This document shows positions 49,701 through 63,403 of a stretch of DNA of 64,000 nucleotides, in pieces; the stretch's first letter is position 1, and each line of letters opens with the position of its first letter. The stretch spans positions 1-64,000 of the forward strand of contig JAPPLF010000100.1 in NCBI GenBank assembly GCA_028874215.1, written 5' to 3'. The stretch comes from Acidobacteriota bacterium (GTDB taxonomy: Bacteria > Acidobacteriota > UBA6911 > RPQK01 > JAJDTT01). The notes below the pieces were generated by a model. That model saw nothing but the letters and a program-made list of their open reading frames with translations, was not told the DNA's origin and ran no database searches. Position numbers and translations under genes: made by a program.

Positions 49701-50003
49701 TCGCTCGCGGCGGCGAAGAGGGCGACGAAGGCGGTACAGACGGAGCTGAACTCGAAAGTGCTCGTTCGGTACGCGACGCTGACCATGGCGGAAATCGCCG
49801 AGATCGTGGTGGACGACAAGTGGGTGGCAAGCGTCGAGGCCGGGATCGGGCAGCAGGTGGAGCGACTGGCGGGTGGTCTGGTGGACCGGGTCAGGGTGCT
49901 GACAGGGCGGTATGCGGACGCGTTGCCGGAGCTGGAGCGTCAGGTTGAGGACTACAGCGCCAGAGTCGAGTCCCACCTGAAGCGGATGGGGCTGCCGGCG
50001 TGA
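49701..50003 (+). pseudogene. Detached C-terminal tail of HsdM
   Basis: In the hsdM frame after the amber codon the sequence reads SLAAAKRATKAVQTEL, then LVRYATLTMAEIAEIVVDDKWVASV and ends ARVESHLKRMGLPA. This is the normal last 100 residues of long HsdM proteins. Its TGA overlaps the GTG of the DUF1016 gene by two bases. Tail translation would need suppression of the stop, or restart at the GTG at 49758. Confidence 0.8.
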
Positions 50004-51181
50004 GCCAGTCGTTTGATTTCGAGCGCCTCGTCGAGCTCTGTCGGCATACCCATGAAGAGACTCGGCGCTCCGCCGCCCGCGCCGTGGACCACTCGCTGGT
50101 CGTGCGGAATTGGCTGTTCGGATGGTACATCGTGGAATACGAGCAGAGCGGCGCGGACCGGGCGGAGTATGGCAGACAGACCTTGAAGAAACTGTCGAAG
50201 GCCCTGAAGGAGCGGATCGGACGGGGCTTTTCCGTTGACATTCTAGAGCAGATGCGGCGGTTCTACCGAAGCTACGAACATGTCGTCGCCGATGTCTCGG
50301 CCACCGACGATTTCGCGCTACCGTCTCGGGTTTCCGGTGACCAGTCGATTCCCGAGACCATGTCTCGGATTTCTCGTGACCAATCGATTTCCGAGACGGT
50401 GTCTCGGATTTCATCCGGTTTCTCGCCAGAAACGGCTCCAAGCTTCGCACGACTCGCCGAACTGTTCCCCCTCGGCTGGTCCCACTACGTGACCCTGCTG
50501 TCTGTAACCGACCCTGAAGCCCGCCGTTTCTACGAGATCGAGGCTGCGGACAACGGCTGGAGCGTTCGTGAACTCAAGCGGCAACTGGACAGCTCGCTGT
50601 ACGAGCGGCTCGCGCTCAGCCGCGACAAGCACGAGGTCCGCCGCCTCGCCCGCGAGGGTCACGTGGTCGAGAAGGCGTCGGATCTGATCAAGGATCCGGT
50701 AGTGCTGGAGTTCCTCGGTCTGGAGGAGAAACCAGCCTACTCCGAGAGCGAACTGGAGACCGCGATCATCGACCGGCTCCAGCAGTTCTTGCTGGAACTC
50801 GGCAAAGGCTTTCTGTTCGAGGCGCGGCAGAAGCGCTTCAGCTTCGACGACCGTCACTTCTTCGTCGATCTCGTCTTCTATAACCGCCTGCTGCGCTGCT
50901 ACGTGCTGATCGACCTGAAACGCGGGGAGTTGACGCATCAGGACCTCGGCCAGATGCAGATGTACGTGAACTACTTCGACCGCTACGTGAAAACCGATGA
51001 CGAACTGCCGACCGTCGGAATCCTGCTCTGCGACCGGAAGAACGAGGCAGTGGTCGAGTTGACGCTGCCCGAAGACGCCACCATCTACGCGTCGAAGTAC
51101 CAGTTGTACCTGCCGTCGCGGGAGGAGCTTGCGGACGAGGTGGCTATGGTGAGGCGGGAGATTGGGGGGATTGGGAGATGA
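50000..51181 (+). CDS. DUF1016 (YhcG-type) PD-(D/E)xK nuclease protein
   Basis: The 393-residue protein has an N-terminal DUF1016 helical domain (VRNWLFGWYIVEYEQSG, LSKALKERIGRGFS, MRRFYRSYE) and a C-terminal nuclease domain with D290 in FVDLVFYN and D305-L-K307 in VLIDLKRGEL. The QMQMYVNYFDRY segment is also a family mark. These proteins occur widely inside type I restriction loci and their role there is unknown. The GTG start is coupled to the hsdM tail. Residues about 109-145 consist of a 13-residue tandem repeat. No target or partner can be named from sequence. Confidence 0.9.
   Translation: MSQSFDFERLVELCRHTHEETRRSAARAVDHSLVVRNWLFGWYIVEYEQSGADRAEYGRQTLKKLSKALKERIGRGFSVDILEQMRRFYRSYEHVVADVSATDDFALPSRVSGDQSIPETMSRISRDQSISETVSRISSGFSPETAPSFARLAELFPLGWSHYVTLLSVTDPEARRFYEIEAADNGWSVRELKRQLDSSLYERLALSRDKHEVRRLAREGHVVEKASDLIKDPVVLEFLGLEEKPAYSESELETAIIDRLQQFLLELGKGFLFEARQKRFSFDDRHFFVDLVFYNRLLRCYVLIDLKRGELTHQDLGQMQMYVNYFDRYVKTDDELPTVGILLCDRKNEAVVELTLPEDATIYASKYQLYLPSREELADEVAMVRREIGGIGR
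50324..50434. repeat. 39-base in-frame tandem repeat containing two identical-arm palindromes
   Basis: Units of 39 bases start at 50324, 50363 and 50402 (third partial), coding for S-R-[VI]-S-x-D-Q-S-I-x-E-T-x. At each unit junction lies CCGAGACNNNGTCTCGG (50352-50368 and 50391-50407), a perfect seven-base inverted repeat with a three-base loop. Confidence 0.85.
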
Positions 51182-51187
51182 GGGGGG

Positions 51188-52456
51188 ATGGGTGAGGATC
51201 AGCCGTTAAAGGTTGCGGGGGCCGGTGGAGCGTGGAAGTGGGTCCGAGTTGGAGATATCGGTCGATTCGGCAGCGGCAGCGGTTTTCCGGTCAGGTATCA
51301 GGGTCGAGCGCAGGGTGATTACCCGTTCTTCAAGGTCTCAGACATGAATCGCGATGGAAACGACGTGTTCCTGACCGAGAGTGGCAATCACATCACAGAG
51401 CACACCCGCCAGCTTCTGGGCGCAGCCGCATTTCCACCAAAGTCAATCGTATTCGCAAAGGTCGGAGCCGCAGTGTTCCTTGACCGCAAGAGGATTCTGG
51501 CTCAGCCGAGCTGTCTCGACAACAACATGGCGGCATTCGTGCTGACCGACGAACGCGTGGACATCTCGTTCGTCTACTTTTTACTCCTGACTATTCGCTT
51601 CAGTGCTTTCGCGAACACGACCGCCCTGCCAGCCCTCAGTGGTACTGCGCTTTCCGAAATCCGGCTCCACCTCCCTCCCCTCCCCGAACAGCGCACCATC
51701 GCCGCCGTGCTGTCCGATGTGGACGAGCTGATCGGATCGCTGGAAGCGCTGATCGCCAAGAAGCGGGCCATCAAGCAGGCCGCGATGCAGGAACTGCTGA
51801 CCGGGAGGAAGCGGCTGCCGGGGTTCGGGGGGGAGTGGGAGACGGTTACCTTCGCGGACGCAGCGAACATCCGAAACGGAGGAACACCGCGCACGGGAGT
51901 CCCCGCCTATTGGGGCGGCCGGATTCCATGGTGCGTCCCGACCGACATCACAGCATCCCGAGGGAAATACCTCGTCACCACGACCCGGAATATCACGTCG
52001 GAAGGATTGGCCAGTTGCGGCGCGAGTCTGCTGCCTCCCGGCAGTCTTCTCCTTTGCAGCCGCGCAACAATTGGCGAGATCAAGATCGCTTCGATGCCTG
52101 TCGCTACAAACCAAGGATTCAAGTCCATGGTGTGCGCTGACTCGGTCGACAACGACTTCCTCTACTACCGTCTGGTGACGCTCAAGGAGCGCATGATCGA
52201 CTTGGCCACCGGCTCCACGTTCCTGGAGATTAGCAAGCGCGACCTAGGCAACATCGACTTTGTTCTCCCTCCCCTCCCTGAACAACGCGCCATCGCCACC
52301 GTTCTCTCCGACATGGACTCCGAGATCACCGCCCTGGAGCAACACCTCGGCAAGACCCGCGCAATCAAGCAGGGTATGATGCAGCAGCTCCTCACCGGTT
52401 CAATCCGCCTGCCCATCCCCGATGCCGACACGGAGGACGTCGCCCATGACGCCTGA
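51188..52456 (+). CDS. hsdS: Type I restriction-modification specificity subunit
   Basis: This 422-residue HsdS has two target-recognition domains (about 15-155 and 215-360). Each is followed by a conserved helical spacer that begins LPPLPEQR and ends AMQELLTG or MMQQLLTG, giving the usual pseudo-twofold form. The domains read the two halves of a bipartite DNA site. The ATG lies seven bases after the DUF1016 stop. The recognition site cannot be predicted from sequence alone. Confidence 0.95.
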   Translation: MGEDQPLKVAGAGGAWKWVRVGDIGRFGSGSGFPVRYQGRAQGDYPFFKVSDMNRDGNDVFLTESGNHITEHTRQLLGAAAFPPKSIVFAKVGAAVFLDRKRILAQPSCLDNNMAAFVLTDERVDISFVYFLLLTIRFSAFANTTALPALSGTALSEIRLHLPPLPEQRTIAAVLSDVDELIGSLEALIAKKRAIKQAAMQELLTGRKRLPGFGGEWETVTFADAANIRNGGTPRTGVPAYWGGRIPWCVPTDITASRGKYLVTTTRNITSEGLASCGASLLPPGSLLLCSRATIGEIKIASMPVATNQGFKSMVCADSVDNDFLYYRLVTLKERMIDLATGSTFLEISKRDLGNIDFVLPPLPEQRAIATVLSDMDSEITALEQHLGKTRAIKQGMMQQLLTGSIRLPIPDADTEDVAHDA

Positions 52457-52754
52457 ACCGCCCAACGTAGAGCCGAGATCGTCCTGGCGCGACGAGCACC
52501 TGGATTGCATCTGCGGACTCGCGAATGGCTGGGGCGGCATCCTCGAGATCGGGCGGGACAATCACGGCGAGGACGTCGGGGTGACCGATGTTCTCCGTCA
52601 CGGATCCACCGTCCGATACCAGCTGGACAAGCTGCGCGCGACCGGGAAGGTGGCGGGGATCTGGCCCGAAAAAGACGGCTACTGGAAGGTGTTGGCCGGT
52701 TACTCTGCCAAACCCGATCCTGTCGCCGACCCCAACCCTCAGAGCCCCCGATGA
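52446..52754 (+). CDS. Collapsed AlbA_2 / winged-helix protein between hsdS and hsdR
   Basis: This 102-residue protein begins like an AlbA_2 (Schlafen-type) ATP-binding protein (SSWRDEHLDCICGLANGWGG then ILEIGRDNHG). It jumps to the winged-helix end of the same family (LRHGSTVRYQLDKLRATGKVAGIW, KDGYWKVL). The long middle of a normal 400-500-residue protein is missing. It overlaps the hsdS stop by 11 bases and the hsdR start by four. The reading frame and coupling are preserved, so it may still be made as a small DNA-binding protein or be a clean deletion remnant. Confidence 0.7.
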   Translation: MTPEPPNVEPRSSWRDEHLDCICGLANGWGGILEIGRDNHGEDVGVTDVLRHGSTVRYQLDKLRATGKVAGIWPEKDGYWKVLAGYSAKPDPVADPNPQSPR

Positions 52755-55700
52755 GCGCCGTCGGCGAGCTCGAAACCCGCACCCAGCGCCGGGTCGTCGA
52801 CCACTTCCGGCACCAGCTCGGCTACGAGTATCTGGGCGACTGGCAGGAACGCCCGAACAACCGGAACATCGAAGCCGTCCTCCTCACGCAGTTCCTCACT
52901 CGCCAGGGCCATGACGCGGCCATCATCAGCAAAGCACTGGACAAGCTCGGCAAGGCCGCCGCCCTCGGCGGAGGCAAGACCCTCTACGACGCCAACCGCG
53001 AGGTCTACGGTCTCCTCCGCTACGGAGCCAAGGTCAGCCCAGGGCTCGGCGAACACACGGTCACCGTCGACCTGATCGACTGGGACAACCCGGCCGCCAA
53101 CGACTTCGCCATCGCCGAAGAGGTCACGGTCGAAGCGACCCACACCAAGCGGCCCGACATCGTGCTCTACGTCAACGGGATCGCCGTCGGGGTGCTCGAA
53201 CTCAAGCGCTCGACCGTCTCGGTGTCCGAAGGTATCCGCCAGAATCTGGACAACCAGAAGAAGGACTTCATCCGCCCGTTCTTCGCCACGATGCAGCTCG
53301 TCATGGCGGGCAACGAGACCGAGGGGCTCCGCTACGGCGTCATTGAGACGCCGGAGAAGTACTGGCTCCGCTGGAAGGAACACGGTGACCCAGACGACAC
53401 TACCACCTCTCCCCTCCTCTGCGAACTCACTCATCTATGCACCCCTGGGCGCCTGCTCGAACTCCTCCACGACTTCGTGGTCTTCGACGCCGGCGTGAAG
53501 AAAATCTGCCGTCATAACCAGTATTTCGGCGTGAAGGCGGCCCGGAAGTACGCCAACCGCCGGGAAGGCGGGATCATCTGGCACACGCAGGGCAGCGGAA
53601 AGAGCCTCACGATGGTGTGGCTGGCAAAGTGGATCCGTGAGCTCAAGGGCGTGGACGGCCGCGTGCTCATCGTTACCGACCGCACCGAACTCGACGAGCA
53701 GATCGAGAAGGTCTTCAGCGGAGTGGACGAGGACATCTACCGTACGAGGAGCGGCACCGACCTCGCGGAGGTGCTTCGGGACCCCGCCAAGTCGCTGATC
53801 TGTTCGCTCGTCCACAAGTTCGGCAGTTCCGGCGAAGGCAACGTCGACCAGTACCTGGATGACCTCCGGAGCCACATTTCAGGTGGTTTGCGCCCTCCCG
53901 GCGAGATCTTCGTCTTCGTGGACGAATGTCACCGGACCCAGTCCGGCAAGCTGCACAGGGCCATGAAGGCGATCCTCCCCGGGGCCACCCTGTTCGGCTT
54001 TACCGGAACGCCGCTGCTCAGGTCCGACAAGCAGCGCAGCATCGAGATCTTCGGTCCGTACATCCACACCTACAAGTACGACGAGGCGGTGGACGACGAA
54101 GTGGTGCTGGACCTGCGGTACGAGGCGCGGGACATCGACCAGAACATCACCTCGGAGGCGAAGATCGACCAATGGTTCGACCTCAAGACCAAGGGGCTCA
54201 GCGACCTGGCCCGAGCGCAGCTCAGGCAGAGGTGGGGCACCATGCGCAAGGTCACGAGTTCGCTCGATCGCATCCGAAAAATCGTGGACGACATCCTGAT
54301 GGACATGGAGATTAAGGACCGCCTGCAGAGCGGCCGCGGCAACGCCATGCTTGTGTCGGACAGCGTCTACGCCGCCTGCCGCTTCTTCCAGGCATTCAGT
54401 GAGACCGACCTGAAGGACAGGTGCGCCATCGTAACCTCCTACACCCCGGCGCCAGGTGACATCACGGGAGAAGAAACGGGCGAGGGTCTCACTGAGCGGC
54501 TCCTCAAGTACGATGTCTATCGGAAGATGCTCGCGGACTACTTCGATGAGCCCGCGGACAAGGCCTTGCACAAGGCCGAGCAGTTCGAGCAGCAGGTCAA
54601 GCGGCGGTTCGTGAACGATCCCGGCCAGATGAAACTCCTGATCGTTGTGGACAAACTGCTCACCGGCTTTGACGCGCCGCCGGCGACCTATCTCTACATC
54701 GACAAGAAGATGCAGGACCACGGTCTTTTCCAGGCGATCTGCCGCGTCAACCGGCTGGACGGCGACGACAAGGAATACGGCTACGTCATCGACTACAAGG
54801 ACCTTTTCCGGTCGTTGGAGGGCGCGATCAAGGACTACACGGGCGAAGCGTTCGAGGGCTACGACCGCGAAGACGTGGAGGGCCTGTTGAAGGACCGGCT
54901 GGAGCAGGGGCGGAAGCGCCTGGAGGAGACTCGCGAAGCGGTCAAGGCGCTGTGCGAACCCGTCGAGCCGCCGTACGACACGGACGCTTACCTGCGCTAT
55001 TTCTGCCACGGCGGAGAGGGCGACGCTGGCACCCAGCCTGGCGGCAGCGAACGGAAGCGGCTCACCCTGTACAGAATGGTGGCGGCGTTCCTGCGCGCCT
55101 ACGCCAATCTGGCCAACGAGATGACCGAGGCCGGTTACACGGAGGCCGAACGGCAGACCATCAAGGACGAGGTCGGCCATTACGAGAAGGTCCGCCAGGA
55201 AGTCAAGCTGGCCAGCGGCGACTACGTCGATCTGAAGGTGTTCGAGCCCGCCATGCGGCATCTCCTCGACAACTACATCCGGGCCGACGACAGCGAGGTC
55301 ATTTCCGCGTTCGACGATCTGACGCTCGTGGACCTGCTCGTCAGAGACGGTGCGGGTGCCATCGACGGGCTTCCCGAGGGTATCCGGAGCAGTCAGGGTG
55401 CCGTTGCCGAGACCATCGAGAACAACGTCCGCCGCCTGATCGTCGATGAGATGGCGGTCAACCCGAAGTACTACGAGAAGATGTCCGCGGTGCTCGATGC
55501 GCTAATCAAGCAGCGCAGAGAAGAAGCGATCGAGTACGAGGCCTACCTCAAAAAGATTATCGAGCTCGCCGAGCAGGTGAAGCGCGGGGTGGATGGGGGA
55601 TCATATCCCGCGACGATCAAGACGCGGTCGCTGCGGGCAATCTACGACAACCTGCCGGCCGAATTACCGGCGGATCGCGTGGCCGAGCCGGGTGTGAGAT

Positions 55701-55903
55701 GGGAGACGGATACCGAGACCAATCTCCGCGAAGTGGCGGCGCTGGCTGTCGATCGCGCAATCCGTAAGGTCCGAATGGCCGATTGGCGCGGCCACCCCAT
55801 TAAGGAGAAGCGGATCGGCAGGGCGATCCGAGACGCACTCGGTCCCTTCAAGGCTTACACTCGAACGATCTTCGAAATTGCGAAGGCCCGCAGTGAGTAC
55901 TGA
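52751..55903 (+). CDS. hsdR: Type I restriction endonuclease subunit R
   Basis: The 1050-residue HsdR has an N-terminal PD-(D/E)xK nuclease with D136 and E150-x-K152 (PDIVLYVN, VLELKR). A superfamily 2 motor follows with Walker A TQGSGKS near residues 279-285 and a DECH box at 391-394. Helicase motifs include GFTGTPLL and AICRVNRLDG. A C-terminal helical part ends after IFEIAKARSEY. It translocates DNA and cuts far from unmethylated sites, with HsdM and HsdS. The ATG overlaps the preceding small gene's stop. The gene appears intact. Confidence 0.96.
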   Translation: MSAVGELETRTQRRVVDHFRHQLGYEYLGDWQERPNNRNIEAVLLTQFLTRQGHDAAIISKALDKLGKAAALGGGKTLYDANREVYGLLRYGAKVSPGLGEHTVTVDLIDWDNPAANDFAIAEEVTVEATHTKRPDIVLYVNGIAVGVLELKRSTVSVSEGIRQNLDNQKKDFIRPFFATMQLVMAGNETEGLRYGVIETPEKYWLRWKEHGDPDDTTTSPLLCELTHLCTPGRLLELLHDFVVFDAGVKKICRHNQYFGVKAARKYANRREGGIIWHTQGSGKSLTMVWLAKWIRELKGVDGRVLIVTDRTELDEQIEKVFSGVDEDIYRTRSGTDLAEVLRDPAKSLICSLVHKFGSSGEGNVDQYLDDLRSHISGGLRPPGEIFVFVDECHRTQSGKLHRAMKAILPGATLFGFTGTPLLRSDKQRSIEIFGPYIHTYKYDEAVDDEVVLDLRYEARDIDQNITSEAKIDQWFDLKTKGLSDLARAQLRQRWGTMRKVTSSLDRIRKIVDDILMDMEIKDRLQSGRGNAMLVSDSVYAACRFFQAFSETDLKDRCAIVTSYTPAPGDITGEETGEGLTERLLKYDVYRKMLADYFDEPADKALHKAEQFEQQVKRRFVNDPGQMKLLIVVDKLLTGFDAPPATYLYIDKKMQDHGLFQAICRVNRLDGDDKEYGYVIDYKDLFRSLEGAIKDYTGEAFEGYDREDVEGLLKDRLEQGRKRLEETREAVKALCEPVEPPYDTDAYLRYFCHGGEGDAGTQPGGSERKRLTLYRMVAAFLRAYANLANEMTEAGYTEAERQTIKDEVGHYEKVRQEVKLASGDYVDLKVFEPAMRHLLDNYIRADDSEVISAFDDLTLVDLLVRDGAGAIDGLPEGIRSSQGAVAETIENNVRRLIVDEMAVNPKYYEKMSAVLDALIKQRREEAIEYEAYLKKIIELAEQVKRGVDGGSYPATIKTRSLRAIYDNLPAELPADRVAEPGVRWETDTETNLREVAALAVDRAIRKVRMADWRGHPIKEKRIGRAIRDALGPFKAYTRTIFEIAKARSEY

Positions 55904-56636
55904 CAGATACTACATGGATGTCCGCGGCGTTCCCGTGGCGGTCATCCGCAAGGACATCAAGAACCTCCACCTGAGCGTCTATCCCCCCGAAGGGCAAGTG
56001 CGCGTCTCGGCTCCACTGCGTCTCGACGACGACGCGATACGGCTGGCGGTTGTTTCGCGCCTCGGATGGATTCGGCGCAAGCGTGCCGAGTTTGAGCAGC
56101 AGGACCGCCAAACCCAGCGCGACTTCGTATCCGGTGAGAGTCACTACTTCGAGGGACGACGCTATCGCCTGGATGTGGTTGAATCGCGAGGCCCAGTCGG
56201 TATTCGCCTGCGCAACAATGCCTGGATGGAGATGCGCGTGCGCCCCGAGACCGGCCGCGACGCCCGCGAGGCCCTGTTCTACCGTTGGTATCGGGCTCAG
56301 TTGCGACAGCATATCCCTGAGGTGATCGCCAAGTGGGAATCCCGGCTCGGTGTGCATGTGGCCGACTGGCGCATCCGTCGCATGAAGACCCGCTGGGGAA
56401 GCTGCAATGCCGGGGCATGCCGTATCTGGCTCAACTCCGAGCTGGCCAAGAAGCCCCTGTCCTGCCTGGAATACGTCGTCGTCCACGAGATGGCCCACCT
56501 TGCCGAGCCGAGCCACAACGAGCGCTTCCGGGAAATAATGGACCGCGTCATGCCGAGTTGGTGCCTGCGCGCCGAAGAGTTGAATCGCACCCATCCTGCC
56601 GATGAAGTCTGGGGGGAATTGCTGCCCACCAGGTAA
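55893..56636 (+). CDS. YgjP-like (DUF45) zinc metallopeptidase
   Basis: From the GTG at 55893 the protein has 247 residues. The C-terminal half has the DUF45 motifs MKTRWGSCN, WLNSELAKKP, YVVVHEMAHL with HEMAH at residues 198-202, and HNERFREIMD for the third zinc ligand. The N-terminal half is a small beta domain (LHLSVYPPEGQVRVSAP). It starts inside the last codons of hsdR. Such peptidase genes often follow hsdR in type I loci, but their function is not established; turnover of HsdR is one possibility. Confidence 0.9.
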   Translation: MSTDRYYMDVRGVPVAVIRKDIKNLHLSVYPPEGQVRVSAPLRLDDDAIRLAVVSRLGWIRRKRAEFEQQDRQTQRDFVSGESHYFEGRRYRLDVVESRGPVGIRLRNNAWMEMRVRPETGRDAREALFYRWYRAQLRQHIPEVIAKWESRLGVHVADWRIRRMKTRWGSCNAGACRIWLNSELAKKPLSCLEYVVVHEMAHLAEPSHNERFREIMDRVMPSWCLRAEELNRTHPADEVWGELLPTR

Positions 56637-56667
56637 CTCTCTTCCTTGTGTTCTTGCAGCCGGGGCG

Positions 56668-56680
56668 GTAGTAAACTGGG
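56668..56680 (+). promoter_or_regulatory. GTAGTAAACTGGG upstream motif, copy 3
   Basis: It differs at one base from the copies at 12400 and 24486. It ends 25 bases before an in-frame ATA at 56706 and 34 before a TTG at 56715 of the next gene, with GGAAGGGGG between. Confidence 0.45.
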
Positions 56681-56714
56681 CCGGGACCCGGGAAGGGGGT
56701 GTGCGATAAGACGG

Positions 56715-57908
56715 TTGCTGCTGTGTGCTGTGAGTCTGGCATGGTTGCTGGTACCGATCCACGCGGCCGGCTGGGAGCGTGTCCAGGTCACGGTCGGCGA
56801 GACGGTCAAGATCGTTCCCCAAGGCACGCGGCTGGTCCGCGGAATGCTGGGAATCGTACGGCATCCCGACGGGTCCATCTTCGTGAACACCCAGACCGGG
56901 GGTCTGGCCCGAAGCCGGGACCAAGGGAAGACCTGGAGCCTGCTCCCGACAGAGAGAGCCTTTGCCCTGGGTGTCACCCGCGACGGACGGCTCTGGTTGG
57001 CGGACCACGTCAAGGACTCCTCCCAGTTGGTGGTGCGCCACTCCTCCGACTCGGGCGAGACCTGGACCACGACGGTGCTCGACGTCTCCGATCTCTCCCC
57101 GGAATCGAGCCGGCAGCCTTACAACTGGACCGGCGACGACTACAACACATTCATCGAGCGGCCCGACGGGACCCTCATGTTCTCGGCCGGTCTGCGGCGG
57201 ATCCCCTGGTATTACGAGGATCCGTCCCTGATGGAGGATGGACTGGTCTCGCCCGATGCCGACGTGGGCGGCCTTTTCCTGTTCCGGAGCCGCGATGGCG
57301 GCAAAAGTTGGGGCGAACCGAGCCTGGTGCATGGGTTTGCCTCCGAAGTGGGCTATGCCGTCGATCCCGCGGACTCGGACCGCATCCTGGCCATGACCCG
57401 GATCCAGAGGCCTCTACTGGCGGGCGAGGACAGGTCGGAGACGCTGAAGAAGACGGGCGCCCCGGCCAGCACCAAGTCCAACTATCCCTCCATCTACAAG
57501 AACGGCCTGCTGCTGGAATCGCGCGACGGCGGCCGCACATTCGCCGAGGTTCCGGGAGGGCTCACCGGATTCTACGAGATTCGCGGGACCATCCTCTGGA
57601 CGGCGGACAACCGGGTGGTGGTGACCCATCAGGGGGCGCACCCGGGTGGAGCCCCGGACGGAACCCTCCTGGCCAGAATCAGTCTCGACGGCGGTCGGCG
57701 CTGGCTCGACGGCACGGCAACCGGGACGACGGCCATGAACCAATCCCGAAAATTCGTGCTGGTCCCCATGCCCCCCGGGCATTCCTTCACGGCACCCAGC
57801 GTGCAGATCTCCGAAAATCGCTTTCTGAGCGTCTATTTTCACGGAAACCTGAGCCGGAACATCGCCATGGTCAGTGGTGTTTTCTGGCGTTTGGAGCACC
57901 TTCCGTGA
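56715..57908 (+). CDS. Secreted sialidase-like (BNR-repeat) propeller protein
   Basis: The protein of about 397 residues has a signal peptide (LLLCAVSLAWLLVPIHAAG) and repeated Asp-box motifs SRDQGKTW, SSDSGETW, SRDGGKSWG, SRDGGRTF and SLDGGRRW, the marks of sialidase-type six-bladed propellers. I do not see the Arg triad of true sialidases, so the activity is uncertain. The start is unclear. No ATG is available; a TTG at 56715 is used here, but an ATA at 56706 has better spacing to GGAAGGGGG and would begin the signal peptide with RRLLL. The Gfo/Idh-SMP30 fusion gene follows after 39 bases. Confidence 0.75.
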   Translation: MLLCAVSLAWLLVPIHAAGWERVQVTVGETVKIVPQGTRLVRGMLGIVRHPDGSIFVNTQTGGLARSRDQGKTWSLLPTERAFALGVTRDGRLWLADHVKDSSQLVVRHSSDSGETWTTTVLDVSDLSPESSRQPYNWTGDDYNTFIERPDGTLMFSAGLRRIPWYYEDPSLMEDGLVSPDADVGGLFLFRSRDGGKSWGEPSLVHGFASEVGYAVDPADSDRILAMTRIQRPLLAGEDRSETLKKTGAPASTKSNYPSIYKNGLLLESRDGGRTFAEVPGGLTGFYEIRGTILWTADNRVVVTHQGAHPGGAPDGTLLARISLDGGRRWLDGTATGTTAMNQSRKFVLVPMPPGHSFTAPSVQISENRFLSVYFHGNLSRNIAMVSGVFWRLEHLP

Positions 57909-57947: not shown

Positions 57948-59834
57948 ATGGAGCAAGTCGCGATCGCGGTTGTGGGCTGTGGGAATTTCGGCTCGCACAT
58001 GGCCCGCCTGATCCAGGTGCTGGAGCCCTACCGGATCGCCGGATGCCATGATTCTGACCGGGCCGGCGCCGACGCACTGGCCGCCAGCCTGCAGACATAC
58101 GCCTACGACTCGTTCTCCGAATGTCTCCGCGATCCCAAGGTCGACGCCGTCTTCCTGGCGACGCCCAACCACCTGCACTGTCCCCAAACCGTGGCTGCCG
58201 CCCGGGCGGGCAAGCACATCTTCTGCGAGAAGCCCATGGCGCTCGACGTCGAGGAGTGCCACCGGATGATGGAGGCGGCGACGGCGGCCGGGGTGAAGCT
58301 CATGGTCGGCCACAAGCGGCGGCTGCGGCCCCAGTACGCCAAGATGTCCCAGGTGGTTCGGAGCGGCCGTCTGGGGCGCGTCATGGCGGTCAACATCAAC
58401 GGCTTCTACCACCGGGACTGGTGGAGCTGGTGGCTGCGGCGAGACCGGGGCGGAGGCTTGCTCCACGCCTCCGGCGTTCACGACATCGATTTTCTGCGGC
58501 ACATCTGCGGCGAGGCGGGGAACGTGTTCGCCAGGAGTCCCGTGAAGACCGATCATCGAAGCGATTTCGAAGACCAGATCTCGATGCTGATCCACTTCGA
58601 GTCGGGCGCGGTGGCCACGCTTCAGGTCAGCCCCTTCTCTCCGATTCGGACCTTTCGCCAAGCCTTCGGCGTGCACATCGTGCTGGAGCAGGGAGGAATC
58701 CTCTACGATCCCGGCGATTGCAGCGTCACCATTCGGAGCCGCGACGGATGGGAGGAGCGGCACGGGTTCGACAACGAGGCCGGCTTCCGGAGCGCCTATC
58801 TCGAAGAGTTGACCAGCTTCGCCGATTGGATTCTGAAGGACCGGGAGCCGGTGTTCACCGGTTGGGACGGGCTTCGCTGCGTGGAGATCATGGAAGCCGC
58901 CTATCTCTCGGCTCGGACCGGACGGCAGGTCGAGTTGCCGCTGCCGCGGCGGAACGCTCCCGCAGTCATTCGGGGCTCCCTCTCCCGAACCCGGGATCTG
59001 GAGGAGCCGGCCCTGGTCGCCCGCGGACTCTCCATGCCCGAGGGCCCCGCCTTCGACGCCGGCGGAAACCTCTTCGTGGCCAACTGCCGCGCCGACCACG
59101 TGTCCAAAATCTCACCCGAAGGCCGGGTGTCCCGCTTCCTGACCACGGGCGGCAAGCCCCAGGGCGTGGTGGTGAATCCGGACGGGAGCCTCCTGGTATC
59201 GGACCACAAGTTGCGCAAGATCCTCCGGGCCGGACCCGATGGTTCGCTGGAGGACTTCTGCACCCACTATGGCGACGGCCGGCGCCTGCGTGGACCCAAC
59301 GAGATCCTTCACGGTCCCGAGGGTCAGGTCTATTTCACCGATCCGGGGACGGCTTGGCGGGGCCGGCCCACCGGAGCCGTCTCGCGGGTGACGGAGCGGG
59401 GAACCGCCGAGGTCCTGGCGGACGGCTTGGAGTTCACCAATGGTTTGGATTTTCATCCCGGCGGGAAGGCGATCCATGTCGTGGAGACCACCAGCGGCAA
59501 GGTCTTGCGCGCGCCTCTGAACGAGACGGGAAATTTGGCCGGACCGTTCGAGGAATTCGTGCGTTTTACGGGGAGGGTCGGTCCCGACGGGATCCGATTC
59601 GCCGCCGATGGCGATCTCTACGTCACACTATTCGGGCGCGGCCAGATCGCCGTGGTCTCTCCGGACGCCGAGGTGATGGATCGAATCCGGCTTCCCGGCC
59701 TGTACCCCACCAACGCGGTCTTCCGGGACGGCAATCTATTGGTGTGCGAAGGAGGCACGGGAGCCATTTGGAGTCTGAATCTGGGCGTGGAGGGGTTGCC
59801 GAGCTACTCGGAAAGGATCTGGAACGGATCTTGA
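57948..59834 (+). CDS. Fusion of Gfo/Idh/MocA oxidoreductase and SMP-30/gluconolactonase
   Basis: This 628-residue protein joins two enzymes. Residues 1-345 are a Gfo/Idh/MocA dehydrogenase with the Rossmann start AVVGCGNFGSH, the catalytic E94-K95-P96 and the GVHDIDFLRH segment. Residues 355-628 are an SMP-30/gluconolactonase propeller with its metal ligands: E365 (MPEGPAF), N451 (RGPNEIL) and D547 (GPDGIRF). The first family oxidises sugars, often to lactones; the second opens lactones. A continuous frame, a short linker and both catalytic sets argue for a real fusion. GGGGAGG precedes the ATG. It lies between the sialidase-like and 2-hydroxyacid dehydrogenase genes. Confidence 0.93.
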   Translation: MEQVAIAVVGCGNFGSHMARLIQVLEPYRIAGCHDSDRAGADALAASLQTYAYDSFSECLRDPKVDAVFLATPNHLHCPQTVAAARAGKHIFCEKPMALDVEECHRMMEAATAAGVKLMVGHKRRLRPQYAKMSQVVRSGRLGRVMAVNINGFYHRDWWSWWLRRDRGGGLLHASGVHDIDFLRHICGEAGNVFARSPVKTDHRSDFEDQISMLIHFESGAVATLQVSPFSPIRTFRQAFGVHIVLEQGGILYDPGDCSVTIRSRDGWEERHGFDNEAGFRSAYLEELTSFADWILKDREPVFTGWDGLRCVEIMEAAYLSARTGRQVELPLPRRNAPAVIRGSLSRTRDLEEPALVARGLSMPEGPAFDAGGNLFVANCRADHVSKISPEGRVSRFLTTGGKPQGVVVNPDGSLLVSDHKLRKILRAGPDGSLEDFCTHYGDGRRLRGPNEILHGPEGQVYFTDPGTAWRGRPTGAVSRVTERGTAEVLADGLEFTNGLDFHPGGKAIHVVETTSGKVLRAPLNETGNLAGPFEEFVRFTGRVGPDGIRFAADGDLYVTLFGRGQIAVVSPDAEVMDRIRLPGLYPTNAVFRDGNLLVCEGGTGAIWSLNLGVEGLPSYSERIWNGS

Positions 59835-59859: not shown

Positions 59860-60876
59860 ATGCCGAAACATCGTCTCGTCTGGCTGACCATCGTCGACCA
59901 GGACCCTTCACCGCTGGAGGCTCAACTCTCGGGCTTGGACTATGAGCTGGAAGTCGTTCTCCTGCCGGACCCGGAGCAGACGGTTCAGGCGGTCCGCGGC
60001 GGCGACGCGGTAGTCACGGTCGGCGTGCCGCTTCGGACCGAGGTGCTGGATCAGGCCCAGAGGCTTCAGGCGATTCTGAGCCAGGGGCACGGCGTCGATC
60101 ACATCGACATCGACGATGCCACCCGGCACGGAATCATGGTGGTCAATACGCCCGGCTTCTGCACCGAAGAGGTCTCCAATCACGCTCTGGCGCTGCTGTT
60201 GGCCTGTACCCGCCAGATCGTCAGTCTGGACCGCCGGGTCAGGAACGGGGAGTGGACGCCGGACCTGTGGGGCCGGATAGACCCCATTCCTCCCCTCGTC
60301 GGACAGGTGCTGGGTCTGGTGAGCTTCGGCGGCATCGCCCGGCTGTTTGCCCGCAAGGCCCGGGCTCTGGGATTGAAGATCATCGGCTACGACCCGTACA
60401 TCCCCCCCTGGATCGCGCAGGAGTACCGGATCGAGCTGGTCCCGGACCTGAACGAGCTGGCCCGCCGCTCCGACTTCGTTTCCATGCACGTGCCCAACGC
60501 CGCCGCCACCCGGGGCATGCTTGGCGAAGACTTCTTCCGGGCCATGAAGCCGAGTGCTTATTTCGTCAACACGGGCCGGGGCCGCACCGTCGACGAGGCG
60601 GCCATGATTTCGGCGCTTCAAGAGGGGGAGATCGCCGGCGCCGGACTGGACGTTTTCGAGGTGGAACCGCTTTCTTCGGACAGTCCGCTCATGGAGATGG
60701 AGAACGTGGTCCTGACACCGCATTCGGCCGGGCTATCGGAAGCGATCTGGAATCGTGGCGCCACCATCATGGGACAGGAAGCGGCCCGAATCTTCAGGGG
60801 AGAGTGGCCCATGTCCCTGGCCAACCCTCAGGTGCGGGACCGGGTTCCTCCCCGGAGACCGGCCACCAACTCTTGA
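59860..60876 (+). CDS. D-2-hydroxyacid dehydrogenase family protein (CtBP-like)
   Basis: The 338-residue protein has the family fold. The NAD-binding loop VLGLVSFGGIARLFARKA is shifted from GxGxxG to G-x-x-x-F-G-G. The catalytic Arg is in NTGRGRTVDE, the Glu in DVFEVEPL and the His in LTPHSAGLS. It acts on 2-hydroxy or 2-oxo acids with NAD(H). GGAGAGGAGAG precedes the ATG. It follows the lactonase fusion gene after 25 bases, and could reduce or oxidise the acid product of that enzyme, though this is inference. Confidence 0.92.
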   Translation: MPKHRLVWLTIVDQDPSPLEAQLSGLDYELEVVLLPDPEQTVQAVRGGDAVVTVGVPLRTEVLDQAQRLQAILSQGHGVDHIDIDDATRHGIMVVNTPGFCTEEVSNHALALLLACTRQIVSLDRRVRNGEWTPDLWGRIDPIPPLVGQVLGLVSFGGIARLFARKARALGLKIIGYDPYIPPWIAQEYRIELVPDLNELARRSDFVSMHVPNAAATRGMLGEDFFRAMKPSAYFVNTGRGRTVDEAAMISALQEGEIAGAGLDVFEVEPLSSDSPLMEMENVVLTPHSAGLSEAIWNRGATIMGQEAARIFRGEWPMSLANPQVRDRVPPRRPATNS

Positions 60877-62075: not shown

Positions 62076-62425
62076 CGGCGTAGAATACTCGGATTCTTCC
62101 TTGCGTGCGACAGCATCGAACCGGCTGATGCGGGATCGGACGCGGGCTGGCTACGGTTTCAGGAAACCGCCGGAAACGGCCGGGTCTCCCGGTTCGATTC
62201 TCTAGACGTCGCCCATTCATTCGTGCTATTTCTGGAAAAAATTTTCGTCGCGAACAAGACTTTCATCTCCGCGCGCCGGTCGGGGCTGCCAAGTCGGAGG
62301 ATGCCCCCAGAGTAGATAGCGCAGTGTTCGAGACCCTTTCCCGAGCGAAATTTTTCAAACCACACAGGAACCATGCACTGCCGCACGGCTCATCGATGCC
62401 GTGGCGGCGGCGGAGGACCTCCACC
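62076..62425. other. 350-base divergent intergenic region
   Basis: The middle contains an AT-rich stretch (GGAAAAAATTTTCG, about 62233) and TAGATA near 62313, which could be a -10 for the plus-strand gene. No gene is supported here. The 34 extra codons that could lengthen the next gene contain no ribosome site or signal sequence. Confidence 0.45.
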
Positions 62426-63403
62426 ATGGCCGGATTCCGATGGCCCTATCTGTTGATCACTCCGATTCTGGCGGTCGCCGGACAGGGATTCGCTCCGGCG
62501 CAAACCTCGGCTTGCGCCGATCACTCGATTTCCGCCGGGGCCGTGCGGACATACGAGGACGTGGAGGCGTTCGTCAAATGCGCCTACGAGTTTGTCCAGG
62601 AAGTGGGATTCGAGGAGGCGCGAAGGGCCTTCCACGAAGACGAACGGTGGAGAAAGGGACCCAACTATATTTTTGTCTCCGAGGATACGCCCGTGAGTGA
62701 AGAGACTCGGAGCTTGGTATTTCCGCCCGACCCGTCCAGGGAAGGACGGACGATAACGCGGCTGCTGGACGACGCCTTCGGCAACAACTACTACAGGGAT
62801 CGGCATCGTATCCTGAGCCTCGTCGGTGAGGGCTGGATCCATTACGCGTTCACGAACCCGGCGACCGGCATGGAAGAGCCCAAGGCCTCCTACGTCAAGA
62901 GCATCGACTGGGACGGGACCCCGGCCGCCATCGGCTCCGGCATCTACCGGCGCGACCTCCCGGGGACCTGCCGGCGAGAAGAGGTCAACGCCACGGTGCT
63001 CGGCATAGACCCGTCCAACGAGAGGCTGCAGGAGTTCGTCCGTTGCGCCGCCATGGAAGTGGAAGCGATGGGGTACTTCGCCTCCATCAGCCTGTCCGCG
63101 GATCCCCGTTGGAGGCACGACTCGATCTATTTGTTCGGCGTCGACGGAAACGGAAACACGCTGTTCAGCGGGGATCCCTACCGCTGGGGCGGTTGGACCT
63201 TGGGCGGCCCCGATACTGAGCTGACCTCCCTGGCCGACCGGGACGACCTGAGCGTGGCCCAGGCCTTCGGTGAAACCTTTCTCTACTACATGAGCCGAAA
63301 CCCCGCCACCGGGATGGAGCAGCGGAAAGTCGTCTTCGTCAAGCGGGTGGTCACCTACGGCCTGCCGATCCTCATCGGCTCGGGTTATTATCTGGATGAA
63401 TGA
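62426..63403 (+). CDS. Secreted protein with two Cache-like domains
   Basis: The 325-residue protein has a signal peptide (MAGFRWPYLLITPILAVAG) and two repeats of about 150 residues. Each begins near a Cys, then has the helix YEDVEAFVKCAYEFV or NERLQEFVRCAAMEV, and ends VKSIDWDGTPAAIGSGIY or VKRVVTYGLPILIGSGYY. The ends match the strand-turn of single Cache domains, extracellular small-molecule sensors. The Cys pairs in each repeat may form disulfides. There is no transmembrane signalling domain, so it is a soluble or envelope-bound binding protein. I use the ATG at 62426 because GGAGG lies nine bases upstream. Confidence 0.8.
   Translation: MAGFRWPYLLITPILAVAGQGFAPAQTSACADHSISAGAVRTYEDVEAFVKCAYEFVQEVGFEEARRAFHEDERWRKGPNYIFVSEDTPVSEETRSLVFPPDPSREGRTITRLLDDAFGNNYYRDRHRILSLVGEGWIHYAFTNPATGMEEPKASYVKSIDWDGTPAAIGSGIYRRDLPGTCRREEVNATVLGIDPSNERLQEFVRCAAMEVEAMGYFASISLSADPRWRHDSIYLFGVDGNGNTLFSGDPYRWGGWTLGGPDTELTSLADRDDLSVAQAFGETFLYYMSRNPATGMEQRKVVFVKRVVTYGLPILIGSGYYLDE

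Follow-up and report, generated by a model that had tools for sequence, protein, structure and literature searches.

A conserved fusion of a Gfo/Idh/MocA oxidoreductase with an SGL/SMP-30 β-propeller in Acidobacteria and its possible role in sugar oxidation and lactone opening

A gene in the window (the whole stretch of DNA analyzed here, 64,000 nucleotides from an Acidobacteriota bacterium) joins an oxidoreductase-like half to a lactonase-like half, which raises the question of whether one polypeptide oxidizes a sugar and then opens the resulting lactone. The gene is a single unbroken open reading frame of 628 residues, and its ATG is preceded by the Shine-Dalgarno-like sequence GGGGAGG. Pfam places GFO_IDH_MocA at residues 5-122 (E 9e-29), the Gfo C-terminal domain at 130-330, and SGL at 364-592 (E 2.5e-30). 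PF01408, PF22725, and PF02894 all exceed their cut-offs, and PF08450 scores 106 bits against a cut-off of 26.3, so that the protein belongs to both the Gfo/Idh/MocA and the SGL/SMP-30 superfamily profiles, the Pfam matches over cut-off being to these families and to weak propeller repeats. The parts of the gene are as follows.

57948..59834, + strand: Gfo/Idh/MocA-SGL fusion protein, 628 aa, recognized from the open reading frame, its translation, Pfam, and 11 further genomes with the same architecture
57957..58943, + strand: oxidoreductase (Gfo) half, residues 4-332, from Pfam, a high-confidence structure model, and PDB matches to solved Gfo/Idh/MocA sugar enzymes with Z 36-40 over about 330 residues
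58944..59015, + strand: linker, residues 333-356, with low model confidence and dN/dS < 0.3 between close relatives
59016..59831, + strand: SGL/SMP-30 β-propeller half, residues 357-628, from Pfam, sequence matches to Drp35, gluconolactonase, and DFPase, and a DFPase fold match

The structure model was built from 87 sequences, a model from the fusions alone having been poor. Its mean pLDDT is 91, with a weak stretch near residues 330-350, and it should be noted that the pTM of 0.66 means that the mutual placement of the two domains is not to be trusted. The propeller half superimposes on DFPase with Z 35.9 over 277 residues at 2.0 Å. A search of viral folds returned no matching fusion.

The same full-length architecture, free of internal stops and 57-90% identical to the window, is present in the window's genome and in 11 others, with one of the copies truncated at its contig end; in the alignment of these copies the domain order and the position of the linker are identical. 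The carriers belong either to the window's genus, in which three of the four genomes searched have the fusion, or to a second acidobacterial lineage. Only one member of that lineage has a name, Candidatus Versatilivorator (Terriglobia), and 8 of 12 genomes searched from its order carry the gene. The earlier note had proposed a natural fusion of a sugar dehydrogenase and a lactonase, suggested a search for the same domain pair, and named a lost stop codon near residue 350 as the observation that would tell against it. The search recovered the pair in both lineages, and the persistence of one open frame in all 12 genomes, among them a low-GC marine genome (locus L020), makes an assembly or sequencing artifact vanishingly improbable; this explanation was rejected. 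Selection on the two halves is purifying: within each lineage, dN/dS ranges from 0.10 to 0.16 for Gfo and from 0.08 to 0.17 for SGL. The architecture is therefore genuine and conserved, a new pairing of two known families, and a literature search restricted to open-access papers found no published report of a Gfo/Idh/MocA and SGL pair.

Unfused relatives are distant, identity not exceeding about 39% over the Gfo half or about 33% over the SGL half, and no adjacent unfused Gfo and SGL genes, which might represent an ancestor, are present in the loci fetched. The fusion is probably old and retained, because it is conserved in two lineages, is under purifying selection, and has only distant unfused relatives. 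In a sample of 396 genomes from the window's phylum it was found only in the window's genus; since the second lineage carries it although this sample missed it, its frequency is undersampled. In other phyla, no fusion above E 1e-45 was present in 392 genomes of the phylum of a Schlesneria locus or, in a search that had no positive control, in 398 genomes of the phylum of a Rahnella locus, and the plasmids searched contained no fused gene. The searches of other phyla would overlook fusions that arose independently in more distant subfamilies. The window's genome has a strongly enlarged set of Gfo-like genes, with 76 matches.

The SGL superfamily contains hydrolases of non-sugar esters and phosphoesters as well as lactonases. 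Drp35, SMP30, gluconolactonase, and DFPase share the fold and the metal-ligand positions of the C-terminal half, but they are stand-alone proteins of about 20-25% identity to it. In the xylonolactonase of Caulobacter, Glu18, Asn146, and Asp196 coordinate the metal, and a conserved residue, Asn101, lies nearby (PMC9795676). The Glu, Asn, and Asp ligands and the additional Asn all have counterparts in the fusion, invariant in every complete copy and each aligned with its equivalent in Drp35.

59040..59042, + strand: E365, predicted first metal ligand, invariant, aligned with a Glu of Drp35
59298..59300, + strand: N451, at a highly conserved Asn position of SMP30 lactonases, invariant
59439..59441, + strand: N498, predicted metal ligand, invariant
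59586..59588, + strand: D547, predicted metal ligand, invariant in complete copies, aligned with the Asp of the GPD motif of Drp35

The oxidoreductase half has the Rossmann motif GCGNFG (GxGxxG) at residues 10-15 and the lysine of an EKP motif, and an acidic residue, Asp35, which is invariant in the fusions, follows the second strand; its position suggests a preference for NAD. Three positions define the canonical catalytic site.

58230..58232, + strand: EKP-motif lysine K95, the same in every fusion and in all 76 unfused relatives aligned
58467..58469, + strand: A174, at the canonical Asp/Glu position of the DxxxH motif, Ala in three fusions and His in eight
58479..58481, + strand: H178, catalytic His position, invariant in the fusions

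Four residues before His178, the window's genus thus has Ala and the second lineage His (11 aligned fusions), whereas Asp or Glu occupies the position in 64 of the 76 aligned unfused relatives. With no Asp or Glu before the His, the fusion does not have the canonical Lys-Asp-His triad of inositol or L-glucose dehydrogenases. The claim of the earlier note that both active sites are complete consequently holds for the metal site of the SGL half (Glu365, Asn451, Asn498, and Asp547) but fails for the Gfo half. In an L-glucose-oxidizing scyllo-inositol dehydrogenase, activity was lost when any one of Lys106, Asp191, and His195 was changed to Ala (PMC5969746), and in L-arabinose dehydrogenase the sugar is contacted by Asp169, the Asp of this motif that the fused Gfo half lacks (PMC9795676). 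Glucose-fructose oxidoreductase (GFOR, 1ofg) and aldose-aldose oxidoreductase (AAOR, 5a02), about 28% identical to the Gfo half, both have GGGSLMDIGIY, with Asp and Tyr, where the window has GGGLLHASGVH. However, the 2,7-anhydro-sialic acid oxidoreductases RgNanOx and E. coli YjhC (YjhC/NanY) are working enzymes that likewise do without this Asp, their motif being HxxH (PMC7535918), so its loss in the fusion need not mean inactivity, although the missing acid means that the chemistry of the Gfo half is not to be assumed. These enzymes rank high structurally, but they are 24-30% identical to the fusion, were solved as stand-alone oxidoreductases, and differ in spacing: the fusion has a His in HASGVH (the window) or FHAGVH (other fusions) rather than HxxH. 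The Asp is missing too from two unfused Gfo paralogues of about 39% identity in the window's genus (GGVLACSGVHELD), whose EKP motif reads EKA.

L002:1501-2520 (G000:C70:35573-36589): unfused Gfo paralogue, window's genus
L095:25-1044: unfused Gfo paralogue, window's genus

The closest unfused relative of the Gfo half (38-39%), from a Schlesneria metagenome-assembled genome (L022:6001-7038), has Arg at the Asp position (GGGLLHRAGVHDID).

The position at which the substrate would be oxidized bears directly on whether a lactone is formed. The nearest characterized relatives of the Gfo half, at 20-30% identity, include enzymes that oxidize C1 (GFOR, AAOR, and L-glucose dehydrogenase) and enzymes that oxidize C3 or other positions (WlbA, levoglucosan dehydrogenase, glucuronide-3-dehydrogenase, and YjhC/RgNanOx), and the NCBIfam equivalogs all score far below their cut-offs. 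By sequence the best whole-domain matches are AAOR and GFOR (E about 1e-36), but structural comparison ranks WlbA, glucuronide-3-dehydrogenase, YjhC, levoglucosan dehydrogenase, and the oxidoreductive sulfoquinovosidases at least equal to them. Several of these top structural matches other than the sulfoquinovosidases presumably act at C3. The oxidoreductive sulfoquinovosidases act at C3 (PMC10755693). The hydroxyl that the Gfo half would oxidize, on a sugar or a sugar-like compound, may be at C1 or at another carbon, a choice that sequence alone cannot fix.

Hexose-6-phosphate dehydrogenase (H6PD) joins a G6PD-type dehydrogenase to a 6PGL-type lactonase. It is comparable with the fusion only in how it works, since the fusion is not a member of the G6PD and 6PGL families and pairs a Gfo/Idh/MocA half with a metal-dependent SMP30 propeller. 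In this enzyme of the mammalian endoplasmic reticulum, the dehydrogenase domain makes a sugar lactone that is opened by the lactonase domain of the same polypeptide (PMC12032772). Unfused Gfo-family aldose dehydrogenases and SMP30 lactonases catalyze consecutive steps in oxidative pentose pathways, and in the L-arabinose route of Azospirillum the two families are those of the fusion, but the proteins are separate (PMC9795676).

By analogy with these systems, the reading that we favor, and to which we give an even chance, is that NAD-dependent oxidation and metal-dependent lactone hydrolysis take place in one chain, making the protein a bifunctional carbohydrate enzyme in which both halves would be active and act in sequence on one substrate. 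The N-terminal half would bind NAD and oxidize a substrate hydroxyl by means of Lys95 and His178 in the absence of the usual Asp; the C-terminal propeller would bind a divalent metal on Glu365, Asn498, and Asp547, with Asn451 beside it, and hydrolyze a lactone, in the simplest case the one formed by the N-terminal half. The channeling of an unstable lactone that the earlier note foresaw draws no support from the structure model, in which the relative placement of the domains is uncertain. If both halves do act in sequence, the protein would extend natural dehydrogenase-lactonase fusions beyond the phosphorylated-sugar type of H6PD and would be useful for oxidative sugar conversion. Against this two-step scheme, the DxxxH acid is replaced in every aligned fusion, and many of the closest structural neighbors do not oxidize C1 and so form no lactone product; the non-lactonase activities known in the SGL superfamily and the lack of recognized sugar-acid or sugar-transport genes beside the fusion also weigh against it.

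The main rival is non-C1 and possibly redox-neutral chemistry like that of RgNanOx. The Gfo half would then not be a 1-dehydrogenase but would use NAD transiently at C3 or C4 and regenerate it, giving an elimination or rearrangement in the manner of RgNanOx/YjhC or the oxidoreductive glycosidases, and the propeller would open or hydrolyze a lactone or ester within the same molecule. We consider this possible though somewhat unlikely. It gains from the shared lack of the Asp in RgNanOx and YjhC, from YjhC being the first Foldseek match of the Gfo half (30% identity over 232 residues), and from the presence of WlbA, glucuronide-3-dehydrogenase, levoglucosan dehydrogenase, and SqgA among the top structural matches; however, identity is low throughout, the Z-scores of C1 and C3 oxidizers lie close together, the motif of the window is not HxxH, and SqgA has an acid, Glu189, at the very position in question, four residues before His193 (PMC10755693). 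A more specific form, argued by analogy and distinctly improbable, is a self-contained redox-neutral enzyme in which the Asp-less half would use bound NAD transiently on a lactonized or anhydro acidic sugar and the propeller would hydrolyze the lactone so exposed; if true, a single protein would provide a new way of opening a modified sugar. It is also unlikely, in our estimate, that the halves act on different substrates or that one is only structural or regulatory, the fusion serving co-expression or scaffolding of an oligomer. The lack of an adjacent unfused pair in the fetched loci, the uncertain domain placement in the model, and gene neighborhoods that differ between the two lineages would fit such separate roles, but the use of both sites is indicated by the invariance of the metal ligands and of Lys95 and His178 and by purifying selection in each half. 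That the fusions have consistently lost the catalytic Asp suggests yet-unassigned chemistry in a very large oxidoreductase family, and the fusion would offer a testable function in poorly known, uncultured Acidobacteria.

The genes beside the fusion had led the earlier note to an oxidative sugar route starting from a glycan.

56646..57908, + strand: upstream neighbor, a BNR/Asp-box propeller that looks secreted and scores under the Pfam cut-off for BNR_2, 39 bases from the fusion
59860..60876, + strand: downstream neighbor, a D-2-hydroxyacid dehydrogenase, 25 bases from the fusion
L020:491-11404, also L016, L017, L021, and L023: conserved gene set of the second lineage

The gene order in the window's genus runs from the BNR propeller through the fusion to the D-2-hydroxyacid dehydrogenase, followed on the opposite strand by ferredoxin and DUF2848 genes; the short intergenic gaps suggest co-transcription there, and the fusion and the downstream dehydrogenase are probably co-transcribed. 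Both neighbors adjoin the fusion only in this genus. In the second lineage the fusion is flanked on one side by aminotransferase IV, aminotransferase III, SDR, CN-hydrolase, and aldo/keto reductase genes and on the other by genes for an octopine-type dehydrogenase, NudC, and a BNR_2 protein, a set that is kept even in the low-GC marine genome and that possibly represents an amino-sugar or opine-like pathway. In the window's genus the aldo/keto reductase finds nothing closer than a 40% match. The sole gene common to the two neighborhoods is the BNR propeller, at 21% identity, and with 71 BNR_2 matches in the window's genome (41 and 27 in two others) such a neighbor is unremarkable. Compared with the PDB, the upstream propeller reaches a sialidase over one 31-residue stretch only, the size of an Asp-box, and it is not recognizably a sialidase. 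The proposed route is thus not upheld as a general feature, and a pathway from sialidase to oxidation was rejected. Neither lineage has a recognized sugar-acid dehydratase, aldolase, or sugar transporter beside the fusion.

Farther upstream, window positions 50000-56636 carry Type I restriction genes (HsdS- and HsdR-like) and then an overlapping gene for a YgjP-like metallopeptidase; in a relative (L013:51-3205) HsdR is broken into two frames, the second of which continues uninterrupted into YgjP. Downstream, positions 62324-63403 encode a secreted-looking dCache-domain protein, of which three tandem paralogues lie downstream of the fusion at L013:10660-13886 and at L014:10372-13852.
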